From contig JADBKJ010000020.1 of assembly GCA_014896455.1 (NCBI GenBank), positions 310,001-374,000 of the forward strand: 64,000 nucleotides of DNA, given 5' to 3'. This document shows, in pieces, positions 21,306 to 60,159 of this stretch. The translations under genes were made by a program, and so were the position numbers. The DNA comes from Thermoanaerobacter sp. (GTDB lineage Bacteria > Bacillota > Thermoanaerobacteria > Thermoanaerobacterales > Thermoanaerobacteraceae). Below the pieces are notes generated by a model. The model saw only the letters and a list, made by a program, of their open reading frames with translations. It had not been told where the DNA came from and searched no databases. Position 1 is the first letter of the stretch; every line of letters starts with the position of its first letter.

Positions 21306-21713
21306 TTACCTCCCATCTTTTACAGCAGTCATGATAGAGTTAAGCTCTCCACTTACCCTTTGCACAAGGGCATAGTAATACAACTGATTCTTAGCTAAAT
21401 TTGCCATTTCAGCATCTATGTCTACATTATTTCCATCTAACCTCATGGAAGTGTCATTTACTTGAATAATTTCCGGTTGTATGGAATCAATAGCAGGTGG
21501 GCCAATAGGAATGTGCTTAGGGTTTGTAACATAACCTCTTAACTTTGTACCATTTATAGCATCTTTTAACATATCCTCAAATTTGACTTCAGACCTTTTG
21601 AAATTAGGAGTATCCACATTAGCGATGTTATTGGCAATCACATTGTTTCTTACAGTGGCTGCGTACAATCCCTTTTGTAATAAATCTATATTTTCAATTC
21701 CTAAATCCAGCAT
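21306..21713 (-). CDS. flgB: Flagellar basal-body rod protein FlgB
   Basis: First gene of the fla/che operon, 135 residues. The N-terminal ATVRNNVIANNIANVDTPNFKR and C-terminal MANLAKNQLYYYALVQRV segments are those of FlgB. The start ATG at 21713 has AGGAGG upstream. In many Firmicutes codY directly precedes flgB; here codY is upstream too, but separated by a 580-base gap with a GC-rich element. Confidence 0.95.
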   Translation of the reverse strand: MLDLGIENIDLLQKGLYAATVRNNVIANNIANVDTPNFKRSEVKFEDMLKDAINGTKLRGYVTNPKHIPIGPPAIDSIQPEIIQVNDTSMRLDGNNVDIDAEMANLAKNQLYYYALVQRVSGELNSIMTAVKDGR

Positions 21714-21857
21714 TTTCTCGCCTCCTCTTATTCGACCACACTATACTTAATTCGACAAAAAAATCAAAAATCCTGCTAAAATAAGCCAAAAATAAATATT
21801 TAACTTTGTTTTAACACTGCCTTTTTTGTAAAATAATATCAATTTTTATCGAATAAT

Positions 21858-21863
21858 ATTATA
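21858..21863 (-). promoter_or_regulatory. Candidate extended -10 promoter of the fla/che operon
   Basis: On the minus strand, TGATATAAT is an exact extended -10 box about 145 bases before flgB; no clear -35 is seen 17 bases upstream. The leader between it and flgB carries two copies of GTCGAAT (near 21735 and 21752) that could be a regulator site. I see no sigma-D consensus here. Confidence 0.45.
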
Positions 21864-21895
21864 TCATGTCGTAATAGTTTACACCATAAGAAAAA

Positions 21896-21918
21896 AGTCC
21901 TATTTTTATAGGACTCTT
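21896..21918. repeat. 23-bp direct repeat, left copy: terminator hairpin
   Basis: AGTCCTAT-TTTT-ATAGGACT hairpin plus CTT, identical to 22183-22205. The left copy keeps the A-run that makes it a minus-strand terminator, the right copy keeps the T-run that makes it a plus-strand terminator. The two copies flank the GC-rich element exactly, as a target duplication would. Confidence 0.75.
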
Positions 21919-21922
21919 AGAC

Positions 21923-22175
21923 TGTTGACAAACTTTCGAAAATAGGATATTTTGCAATCGGTGCGACTTGTGACAAAGCGGCAACAAAACTTAACGAGAC
22001 CGAGGGTGGAGGCAGGGCCGTAGCCACGGAGGGCGGAGGCGGGCACCTGAGACAGGACGTCGCCTGACGGGGTACCCTGCCGGAACCCGAAGGTCGAGTT
22101 TTAGTTTTGTCGCTTTGGAACATCGGAGCGACGATGCAAAATATCCTATTTTAAAAATTTTTGACTTTGTCAACA
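21923..22175 (+). ncRNA. GC-rich structured RNA / MITE-like element, copy 1
   Basis: A roughly 250-bp GC-rich island in AT-rich DNA, closed by imperfect inverted repeats (TGTTGACAAA at 21923, TTTGTCAACA at 22166; perfect 15-bp arms 21942-21956 and 22135-22149). On the plus strand, TTGACA (21925-21930), a 17-base spacer and TATTTT form a promoter-like unit, and the hairpin at 22183-22205 plus T-run forms a terminator. Inside, helices can be drawn: 21974-21980 with 22111-22117; 21984-21990 with 22104-22110; 21998-22001 with 22092-22095; 22004-22007 with 22085-22088; 22011-22017 with 22075-22081, separated by G/A-rich internal loops; and apical hairpins at 22018-22029 and 22037-22065. The core resembles 42523-42796 in reverse. 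Small ORFs here look spurious. Known family not recognised. Confidence 0.65.
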
Positions 22176-22182
22176 AGCCGCG

Positions 22183-22205
22183 AGTCCTATTTTTATAGGA
22201 CTCTT
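22183..22205 (+). terminator. 23-bp direct repeat, right copy: terminator hairpin
   Basis: Eight-bp stem AGTCCTAT/ATAGGACT with TTTT loop, followed on the plus strand by CTCTTTTT. It can end plus-strand transcription from the GC-rich element. Before duplication the same hairpin, with the A-run now at 21891, would have been a bidirectional terminator after codY. Confidence 0.7.
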
Positions 22206-22217
22206 TTTGCATAAAAC

Positions 22218-22271
22218 AAGTCTCCTACTTTCATGCTAAAGTACAACCCCATGCATAAAAGCGGGAGACTT
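22218..22271 (-). terminator. Hairpin after codY
   Basis: Arms AAGTCTCC and GGAGACTT pair over a long loop that holds an inner GCAT/ATGC pairing; on the minus strand GTTTTAT follows. It lies 25 bases after the codY stop and is a possible terminator, weaker than the hairpin next to it. Confidence 0.45.
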
Positions 22272-22295
22272 ATATTTTTCAATAAGGGTTTAAAT

Positions 22296-23048
22296 TCATC
22301 TTTTCATTTTCTCCAACTCTTCTAATAATTTATCGTTTAGTACCTTTATATGGGTACCTTTCATTCCTAAAGACCTTGACTCAATTATGCCAGCGCTCTC
22401 AAACTTTCTAAGGGCATTTACAATTACAGACCTTGTAATACCTACTTTATCTGCTATTTTACTTGCAACTAATAATCCTTCTTTTCCATTTAGCTCTTCA
22501 AAAATATTTTTTATAGCTTCTAATTCGGAGTAAGAAAGTGTTCCTAGTGCCATTTGAACAACTGCTCTTTTTCTCGCTTCATCCTCTATTTCTTCATTTT
22601 TTGACCTTAAAATTTCAAGGCCAACTACTGTAGCACCGTATTCTGCTAATATCAAGTCATCGTCAGTAAATTCTTTTACCCCTCTTGATAAGGCTAAAGT
22701 TCCTAACCTGTCTCCACCGCCATTGACAGGTACTATAGTCAAAATTAAATCTGATAAAACTTTATCCTCTTTAAAAAGATTACCTTTATCATTAGCCAGC
22801 GTCTCCGTCACTCGCAAAAGTTTGTCATTATATTCTTCAGGTATTATTTTACTTTGAGCAAAAATGTCATTTCCATAATCTTTTAATATACTATAACCCA
22901 ATACTTTACCCTTTCTACTCAAAATATATACGTTGGCCTCAATGACATCTTTTAGTATACTAGCCATTTCATTAAAATCAACTGGTTGAATTCCTGTTTT
23001 TTGCAAGATTCGATTTACTTTTCTAGTTTTTTCTAATAGTGTACTCAT
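22296..23048 (-). CDS. codY: GTP-sensing global transcriptional repressor CodY
   Basis: Nutritional regulator of 250 residues that senses GTP and branched-chain amino acids. The N-terminal GAF-type ligand domain covers about 1-155, with the C-terminal winged HTH at about 195-245 ([38 protein letters not shown]). The gene ends the hslV-hslU-codY unit and precedes the fla/che operon, the order known from Bacillus, where CodY represses motility. Start ATG after AGGAGGATTAG. Confidence 0.97.
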
Positions 23049-42522: not shown

Positions 42523-42796
42523 AGCTGACATTTTGCATAGCTCGCTCCCGGTAACAGAGAAGGCTAAACTAACGCTCGAGTTCGGACTATGGAGGGGTAC
42601 CTACGTCAGGTGGCCTCCTTACCTTAAGGTGCCAGCCTCCGGCATCCTTGCCTCCGACCCCGCTTTCGTATCTCAGTCTCGCTAAGTTTCTCTGCACTCA
42701 ACTGAACTGGCTGGTCTTTTCTCTTATTCTCCTTTTTTAACTTTTTCGGTTGAGGGCAGAGCTTTAAAGTCACTTCTCTTGTGCAAAATGTCAGCT
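42523..42796 (-). ncRNA. GC-rich structured RNA / MITE-like element, copy 2
   Basis: A 274-bp element closed by a perfect 15-bp inverted repeat, AGCTGACATTTTGCA (42523-42537) and its complement (42782-42796). Read on the minus strand its core aligns with 21923-22175: shared blocks AACTTAGCGAGACTGAG, GGAGGC, GGCACCT, CACCTGACG, GGTACCC and GTTAGTTT. Equivalent helices form with different bases: 42688-42694 with 42555-42561; hairpin 42641-42652 (GGCA/TGCC); 42632-42638 with 42608-42613 (AGGcTGG/CCACCT), capped by ACCTTAAGGT. A 5' extension folds by CTCTGC..TCAAC (42749-42761) with GTTGA..GCAGAG (42690-42702). A 61-codon ORF inside has no coding character. It is co-directional with the surrounding genes and just upstream of the smc promoter. 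Family unknown to me. Confidence 0.65.
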
Positions 42797-59370: not shown

Positions 59371-59431
59371 TCCAGGTAGGCAACTACCTGGATTAAAATT
59401 TTAAAAGGGCAATCGCAAGGACTGCCCTTTT
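59371..59431 (-). terminator. Terminator region after the second SASP gene
   Basis: Two hairpins lie after the minus-strand SASP stop at 59447: AAAAGGGCA/TGCCCTTTT (59403-59431), ending in TTTT, then a perfect 9-bp TCCAGGTAG/CTACCTGGA with GCAA loop (59371-59392). Confidence 0.75.
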
Positions 59432-59446
59432 TTATTATAAATTATT

Positions 59447-59674
59447 TTATTTCCAAGTTCCTTTGCTAGCCATCTGGCTTTCTGCCATTTGTATCATCTT
59501 CCTTACCATGTGGCCACCTACAGCACCGCAATCTCTTGATGTGAGGTTGCCCCAGTAGCCATCAGCTGGAGGAGTTATCCCTAATTCATTAGCTATCTCA
59601 TACTTCCATTGGCTCATAACCTGTTTTGCTTCTCTTACCACAAGTGGATTTTTAGTTTCTGACCCTACAGCCAT
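59447..59674 (-). CDS. Alpha/beta-type small acid-soluble spore protein (second of two)
   Basis: A 75-residue SASP that coats spore DNA in the A-like form. It has KYEIANELGITPPADGYWGNLTSRDCGAVGGHMVRKMI, the two conserved helices of the family, with the germination protease region at NELGI. The ATG at 59674 follows AGGAGGTGA. It differs from the gene at 59817-60044 at only a few residues. A candidate sigma-G promoter (GTATA, 18-base spacer, GTATACAA) lies upstream but fits weakly. Confidence 0.96.
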   Translation of the reverse strand: MAVGSETKNPLVVREAKQVMSQWKYEIANELGITPPADGYWGNLTSRDCGAVGGHMVRKMIQMAESQMASKGTWK

Positions 59675-59769
59675 TTTAATCACCTCCTAAATCATGTTCC
59701 ATTATTAATTTAACCCTCTATTTAAGTTGTATACCTGTAAACAATTGCTATATATACCTTTTTGATATT

Positions 59770-59800
59770 AAAAAGGATATCCCTTTGGGATATCCTTTTT
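59770..59800 (-). terminator. Terminator between the two SASP genes
   Basis: A perfect 14-bp stem (AAAAAGGATATCCC and complement) with a TTT loop, 17 bases after the stop of the first SASP gene. The two SASP genes are therefore separate transcripts. Confidence 0.85.
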
Positions 59801-59816
59801 ATATTAATAATATGAT

Positions 59817-60044
59817 TTATTTCCAAGTTCCTTTGCTAGCCATTTGGCTTTCTGCCATTTGTATCATCTTCCTTACCATGTGGCCACCTACAGCACCGCA
59901 ATCTCTTGATGTGAGGTTGCCCCAGTAGCCATCAGCTGGAGGAGTTATCCCTAATTCTCTTGCTATTTCATATTTCCATTGGCTCATAACCTGTTTTGCC
60001 TCTTTTACCACAAGAGGATTTTTGGTTTCTGATCCTACTGCCAT
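59817..60044 (-). CDS. Alpha/beta-type small acid-soluble spore protein (first of two)
   Basis: A 75-residue SASP almost identical to the gene at 59447-59674; differences include VKEAKQ for VREAKQ and ARELGI for ANELGI. The ATG at 60044 follows GGAGGTGATTG; a 14-codon in-frame extension is discarded. It is followed by its own terminator. Made late in the forespore in related organisms; it protects DNA and supplies amino acids on germination. Confidence 0.96.
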   Translation of the reverse strand: MAVGSETKNPLVVKEAKQVMSQWKYEIARELGITPPADGYWGNLTSRDCGAVGGHMVRKMIQMAESQMASKGTWK

Positions 60045-60159
60045 TTCAATCACCTCCATTTGTGTTTGTATTATTAATTTAACCAAATTGCTTTTTTATA
60101 AACTATAAATTTGTTTTCAAAAATGTATAAAAGTGATTGAAATGGCAAATAATAAAATT

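Follow-up and report, generated by a model that had tools for sequence, protein, structure and literature searches.

A covarying RNA carried by an IS1182-type element in Thermoanaerobacter: a divergent relative of TwoAYGGAY and a candidate decoy for CsrA

The window analysed here, by which we mean the whole 64,000-nt stretch of a Thermoanaerobacter sp. genome, contains two related elements. Element 1 lies on the plus strand (about 21918-22180; the boundaries are approximate and come from its ends aligned with other copies and from a duplicated flank), and element 2 lies on the minus strand (42523..42796). They are 70% identical across 165 bases. A reading made from the letters of the window (hereafter the sequence-only reading) had noticed both elements and taken the matched base changes between them for a conserved RNA fold, with a link to a transposon as a candidate relationship. 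The locus raises the questions of what carries these elements, whether the fold is real, and what such an RNA would do.

The carrier of element 1

Element 1 sits between two minus-strand genes, a codY-like gene at 22296-23048 and a flgB-like gene at 21306-21713; we take these names from the translations and not from a family search. It is bounded by an exact 23-nt direct repeat, each copy of which is a terminator hairpin. The left copy (21896..21918) is terminator-like on the minus strand and the right copy (22183..22205) on the plus strand. Inside the element, the left closing arm ATAGGATATTTTGCA (21942..21956, plus strand) is the exact complement of the right closing arm TGCAAAATATCCTAT (22135..22149, plus strand). 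No reading frame of 80 or more amino acids spans the element, so it holds no transposase of its own.

At least seventy-five close copies of the element 1 type are present in this Thermoanaerobacter genome. The tally was made by hand and consists of forty places scored among 131 first-look candidates and thirty-five further places found by reading the surroundings of the end motif GTTTGTTGACAAAG, which occurs eighty times in the genome (control, 0). When all are turned the same way, the copies have the ends CAGACTGT(T/A)GACAAAC ... CTTTGTCAACAAACTG in common, and their normal length is about 265 nt. Among 81 end-to-end rows, in which seven loci are represented twice owing to another left end nested within a longer pair and duplications containing indels are read as 0, a target duplication of 16-30 nt was found in 43, none in 37, and one of 5 nt in a single row. 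All 43 duplicated targets fold as hairpins, 42 of them at -5 kcal/mol or lower. Of 2000 length-matched stretches drawn at random from the window, 64 reached that level. Because every one of the 43 duplications is a hairpin, we infer that the element inserts into hairpins and duplicates them whole; those that were looked at are terminator-like.

Two sister species contain four full-size elements (1560-1566 bp) whose ends match those of the short copies, with CAGACTGT(T/A)GACAAA and CTTTGTCAACAAACTG common to both. Three of the four are flanked by hairpin duplications (20, 20 and 28 nt) and the fourth by a 6-nt duplication, so that the short and full-size elements also agree in their target duplications. 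The two of the four full-size transposases that were scanned matched NF033551 (IS1182) at 492 and 496 bits against a cut-off of 270. In the genome of the window itself, autonomous IS1182 is represented by one decayed copy that ends in the same repeat. Judged by these matching ends and transposases, the carrier of element 1 is a non-autonomous IS1182-type element (a MITE), and the supposed link to a transposon was correct.

The carrier also occurs without the RNA. Locus L041 is 56 nt long and consists of the ends only, yet its hairpin is duplicated. Two further loci in the same genome (L066:299-563 and L076:299-556) are IS1182-type shells of nearly the same length with unrelated inner DNA and intact hairpin duplications; the interior of L076 resembles the beginning of a gene and may be captured cargo. 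Since shells with other cargo keep the hairpin duplications, movement may not depend on the RNA.

The RNA fold and its relatives

The plus strand of 21925-22175 has a folding energy of -113.3 kcal/mol (z -8.8), a value equally low in none of 200 shuffles. The minus strand folds at -96.9 kcal/mol (z -7.0), so both strands fold better than shuffles. The structured core of element 1 spans 21967..22124 (plus strand) and scores 150 bits with R1, a covariance model described below; that of element 2 spans 42553..42706 (minus strand) and scores 57.5 bits. The outer helix is CAAAGCG/CGCTTTG in element 1 (21974-21980 with 22111-22117, plus strand; alignments A4 and A6) and CAGAGAA/TTCTCTG in element 2 (42688-42694 with 42555-42561, minus strand), exactly as the sequence-only reading had it.

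Its other three helices stood in part. The hairpin contrast CCGT/ACGG versus GGCA/TGCC is right for element 2, whereas the alignment pairs element 1 as GCC-ACGGAG-GGC (22023-22034) at this hairpin and not as CCGT/ACGG. The stem AGGCG/CGCCT with CCTG/CAGG belongs to the minimum-energy fold of element 1 and is not the family consensus, which at this stem is GGGCAC/GUGCCC around GAC/GUC or GGC/GCC; window-type copies can adopt a fold in which loop 2 is partly paired. The closing arms, ATAGGAT versus AGCTGAC, are exactly complementary in each element but are part of the carrier and not of the RNA fold, so the contrast between them is a change of carrier. Sequence comparison shows the carrier of element 2 (arms AGCTGACATTTTGCA/TGCAAAATGTCAGCT) to be different from that of element 1. 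Elsewhere in the genome, two TGCTGACATTTTGCA arms face each other within 211 bases (G000:C4:103095-103305) and may mark a sister to the carrier of element 2. The window also contains two 260-nt direct repeats, 92% identical (59428-59687 and 59798-60057), over two short minus-strand reading frames.

We collected 121 distinct cores and hand-picked seventeen with one type of second hairpin for alignment A4, which was aligned by sequence only and took its structure from the folds of two rows. In A4, 96.7% of cells are paired, compared to 31-46% when the structure is slid along the alignment. The covariation score was 0.193 against 0.113 in shuffled alignments, and none of 500 shuffles reached it. 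Nine pairs changed on both sides, a count that 88 of 500 column shuffles also reached, and the number of pair types exceeded none of 500 shuffles. On A4 alone (128 substitutions), a tree-aware test found one of 51 pairs to covary. When 61 cores were aligned together with MAFFT (A2), the G020/G022 family was placed wrongly and no consensus structure emerged; A4, R1 and the realignment below took the place of A2.

The covariance model R1 was built on the seventeen copies of A4. Alignment A6 contains sixty-seven model-aligned R1 matches from sixty-seven chosen loci, after one antisense match at L123, a near-palindrome, was dropped. Fifty of the 51 pairs changed on both sides, and none of 500 shuffles equalled A6 on any measure (the antisense row was still included in this comparison). 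The tree-aware test is our own implementation after the null of R-scape, applied to the 65 rows left when those at least 97% identical were removed; 34 of the 51 model pairs passed at E 0.05, compared to one of 12195 other column pairs. Because the A6 alignment had been fitted to the structure, we also realigned its rows by sequence alone, leaving out eight rows of the G020/G022 family (59 sequences, then 57). Here 88% of cells are paired (34-44% when slid), and 14 of the 51 pairs passed compared to none of the 12195 others. The sequence-only reading had asked for such a test on a larger alignment beforehand, and significant pairs were found under this R-scape-like null. The covariation is real, as are the compensatory changes and conserved fold first noticed between the two elements, and element 1 very probably carries a structured RNA as transposon cargo.

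No Rfam model matched at gathering level anywhere in the window. Up to E = 1, the only matches in 21700-22400 were TwoAYGGAY (RF01731) and an unrelated lncRNA model beside the element. TwoAYGGAY matched element 1 at 22.1 bits (cut-off 43) over model positions 1-168, its full length with both hairpins, though the loops are not strictly AYGGAY; it gave no match in element 2 up to E = 10. Five of ten other loci tested (E up to 10) matched at 26.7-38.8 bits, and the best copy in the genome of the window reached 39.5 bits. Across the class, 17 of 37 genomes had matches at E 0.01 and two (G020 and G022) had matches above the cut-off. As the scores in this genome lie under 43 bits, we do not file the RNA as a member of the family; on its alignment to the model, the core is a divergent relative of TwoAYGGAY. 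As a separate observation, a SAM riboswitch cut by the locus end lies at L029:3218-3284 (39.9 bits).

Of 299 genomes of the phylum, 52 (41 of 214 genera) gave R1 matches to the RNA, often in several copies, with at most nine candidates scored per genome. Outside the genus but within the family, six of ten genomes had one TwoAYGGAY match each. Five of the six are clearly the same RNA, and the remaining match, in G016, is a doubtful one at another place; in the three with flanking genes listed, the RNA lies between ctpA-like and glycerate-kinase-like genes, in either orientation. Thermoanaerobacterium-type loci (L120, L128 and L123, also L134 and L122) have a single copy at the same place with arms AAGACAATTTTGA/TCAAAATTGTCTT and an orientation that differs by species; as we read L120, L128 and L123, this difference is in-place inversion.

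A pattern scan of named genomes gave at least 115 stretches, and 80 of these plus L353 were scored with R1. Matches were found at 42 of the 81 loci, in records that include Thermoanaerobacter, Thermoanaerobacterium, Moorella, Desulfosporosinus, Desulfovirgula and Lachnospiraceae. Phage and plasmid records gave no blastn match, and L353, the locus of a viral contig with the exact pattern, had no R1 match at E 1e-4. One gammaproteobacterium, Luteibacter rhizovicinus, has many exact CTGAGGCANGGANGCCGAAT matches; its thirteen loci among the 81 (L250, L260, L261, L265 and nine more) were not matched by R1 and may form a branch of their own within the family.

The ends around the RNA vary with the genome. 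Reading by eye, we found several copies between ends of the TATCCCC ... GGGGATA type in G218 and G304, some of which (L222, L223 and L230) are flanked by repeats about 10 nt long. A third kind of end surrounds the RNA in G258, and IS1182-like ends recur in distant genomes (L209, L215), also by eye.

Paired GGA loops and a candidate role

An A(N)GGA loop at the tip of each hairpin is conserved, present in 58 of the 67 A6 rows in hairpin 1, in 63 in hairpin 2 and in 56 in both. In element 1 the loops are ACGGAG (22026..22031, within GCC-loop-GGC) and AGGAC (22054..22058, within GAC-loop-GTC), both on the plus strand; in element 2 they are AAGGAT (42644..42649) and AAGGAG (42615..42620) on the minus strand. 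The three-base stems below the loops interchange (GCC/GGC, GGC/GCC, GAC/GTC, CAC/GTG, CGC/GCG and others) with the loops kept. In the 59 rows having both GGAs, they lie 22-28 nt apart (median 25). R1 includes the loops and its weak matches are biased to GGA, though it also picked up loci lacking GGA, at 102-106 bits.

Passages of PMC4383904 describe CsrA as a dimer whose binding sites are short GGA-bearing hairpins, usually bound in pairs. By sequence and distance, the paired GGA loops of this RNA form the pattern expected for a CsrA-dimer site, with two loops per RNA. All ten genomes of the genus carry csrA, as a host of a CsrA-sequestering RNA would. Across the phylum csrA is common (213 of 299 genomes), and it was found in 50 of the 52 RNA-bearing genomes compared to 163 of the 247 others (P = 1.3e-6, by a statistic that ignores kinship; P = 1.5e-5 if G037, scored positive on a weak match of 8.4e-5, is counted as negative). 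Spo0A, our control for lineage, was present in 49 of 52 and 208 of 247, respectively (P = 0.08). RNA-bearing genomes without csrA or Spo0A were identified by eye. In the genome of the window, csrA adjoins a fliW-like and a flagellin-like gene, presumptive names recognised from their translations.

The ends of the element could supply transcription signals. A promoter-like site, TTGACA-17-TATTTT, lies in the left terminal repeat of element 1 (21925..21953, plus strand) and is the best such site in 21700-22350, matching at 10 of 12 positions. The same inward-reading layout, T(T/A)(G/A)ACA-17-TATTTT (or TATCTT), is found at the left end of 70 of 72 normal-size rows from this genome, while a looser inward search of the right end found a promoter-like site in one of 72. 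Full-size elements have TTGACA-17-TATTAT or TATGAT at the same place. The right copy of the duplicated hairpin at element 1 is terminator-like on the strand of the promoter-like site. At 25 distant loci, promoter scores were no higher upstream (mean 6.5) than on the opposite side (mean 7.0; P = 0.36), so we describe the promoter layout for this genome only.

On balance, we think it probable that element 1 is a mobile small-RNA gene whose product binds CsrA and acts as a decoy. The cargo of the IS1182-family MITE would then be a small-RNA gene. Transcription on the plus strand would start from the promoter in the left terminal repeat, yield a rod-shaped RNA that carries two hairpins at its apex, and end at the terminator hairpin of the target, which insertion has duplicated. 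The two A(N)GGA loops, at the spacing given above, would hold one CsrA dimer, and the RNA made from so many genome copies would act as a decoy and lower free CsrA. This reading draws on the mobility signature, the carrier family, the covarying fold, the loops and their spacing, the promoter-like and terminator-like sites and the host csrA, all of which the sequences show; from these we infer transcription, CsrA binding and titration. Since the GGA loops are kept while the stems around them mutate in matched pairs, a CsrA decoy may be spreading on mobile DNA.

The alternative that survives best, although we consider it unlikely, is an RNA that is produced and conserved but uses its GGA loops for something other than CsrA binding, such as contacts with ribosomes or anti-Shine-Dalgarno sequences or with a different RNA-binding protein. 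Some loops are AAGGAG, which is Shine-Dalgarno-like, and csrA had no match in two RNA-bearing genomes (G213, 94% complete, and G265, 75% complete). Moreover, in G003, a genome of the same genus that has csrA, the two loci read of five matches (L098 and L108) keep the fold and similar ends while GAAA-like apical loops replace A(N)GGA. Against this, presentation in hairpins, the A before GGA and the spacing suit a dimeric GGA binder, and nearly all RNA-bearing genomes do have csrA.

It is less likely still that the element acts in cis as a message tail, that is, as a 3' untranslated region or terminator module and not as a separate small RNA. The element does sit in terminators, and at least one neighbouring gene points at it in 25 of 26 copies tested (of loci L001-L030). 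However, the RNA has no preferred orientation among the neighbours of these 26 copies (both along the RNA in nine, both against it in nine, convergent in seven and divergent in one), which means that no neighbour reads into the RNA strand in ten of the 26. The promoter-like left ends and the Thermoanaerobacterium-type single copies, found in either orientation at one place, also argue against a message tail.

We regard as improbable a third alternative, in which pairing is kept at the DNA level (as a cruciform or transposition hairpin) or by arm-to-arm correction, with no RNA function. It would suit a near-palindromic element whose two strands both fold. What speaks against it is that the loops are kept while the stems turn over and that the same RNA is found between different arms. 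The ratio of G-U to A-C cells bears on both sides: G-U is well in excess in A4 (39:3) and A6 (125:64) but only slightly so in the sequence-only alignment (114:87). The cells are not independent events, and the excess favours selection on RNA of this strand.

The suggestion of a HEARO or omega-type guide RNA for a nuclease or transposase was not borne out and is the least credible of all, since the likeness lies in a structured RNA tied to a transposon, while Rfam gave no match to HEARO or IS605-orfB RNAs (at gathering level in the window, and up to E = 1 in 21700-22400), the carrier is an IS1182 element with a transposase of a different class, and the RNA-less L041, L066 and L076 also have hairpin duplications.

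We offer a wider form of the decoy reading tentatively. At least two unrelated types of transposon end may carry the same CsrA-decoy RNA, spread through Bacillota, with the dose of antidote set by transposon copy number. This would be a mobile system of the CsrB kind, present in bacteria believed to depend on FliW, with an RNA gene that is completed at each insertion by the duplicated terminator.

Comparison with known systems

The habit of the carrier resembles that of IS1272/TnSha1, relatives in the IS1182 family. As passages of PMC4923244 describe, these insert at hairpins, several of which were shown to be terminators, in both orientations, and TnSha1 deletes part of its target without duplicating it. 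Here the whole hairpin is duplicated, by three of the four full-size elements as well. Whole-terminator duplication by IS1182 elements is of interest in its own right.

TwoAYGGAY has been a candidate RNA without known function since 2010 (PMC2864571). It has two AYGGAY-type hairpin loops on an internally looped stem and was proposed, on motif matches, as a CsrA-binding RNA in a passage of PMC4333381. The RNA described here shares that layout but differs in its scores below the cut-off, in the lack of any match to element 2 and in being high-copy transposon cargo. The TwoAYGGAY passages of PMC2864571, PMC4333381 and PMC11701678 make no mention of transposon cargo, and among the matches listed from the open-licence literature (titles and starts of abstracts) no description was found of TwoAYGGAY or a CsrA-binding RNA in that role. 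TwoAYGGAY thus gains a context and a testable partner, with close relatives carried at high copy by non-autonomous transposons, their loops kept and their stems turning over.

A passage of PMC4682653 holds that FliW is thought to stand in for CsrA-sequestering RNAs outside the gamma-proteobacteria. If true, the decoy reading would provide an RNA route to CsrA control in FliW-bearing Bacillota, a question left open in that passage, and would be a case of a transposon bearing a decoy for a regulator of its host. Like the CsrB/RsmY-type RNAs, the RNA has more than one GGA hairpin loop in a host with CsrA. Those RNAs gather many sites in one gene, whereas here there are two sites per RNA and many mobile copies of the gene, in a host that also has a fliW-like gene.
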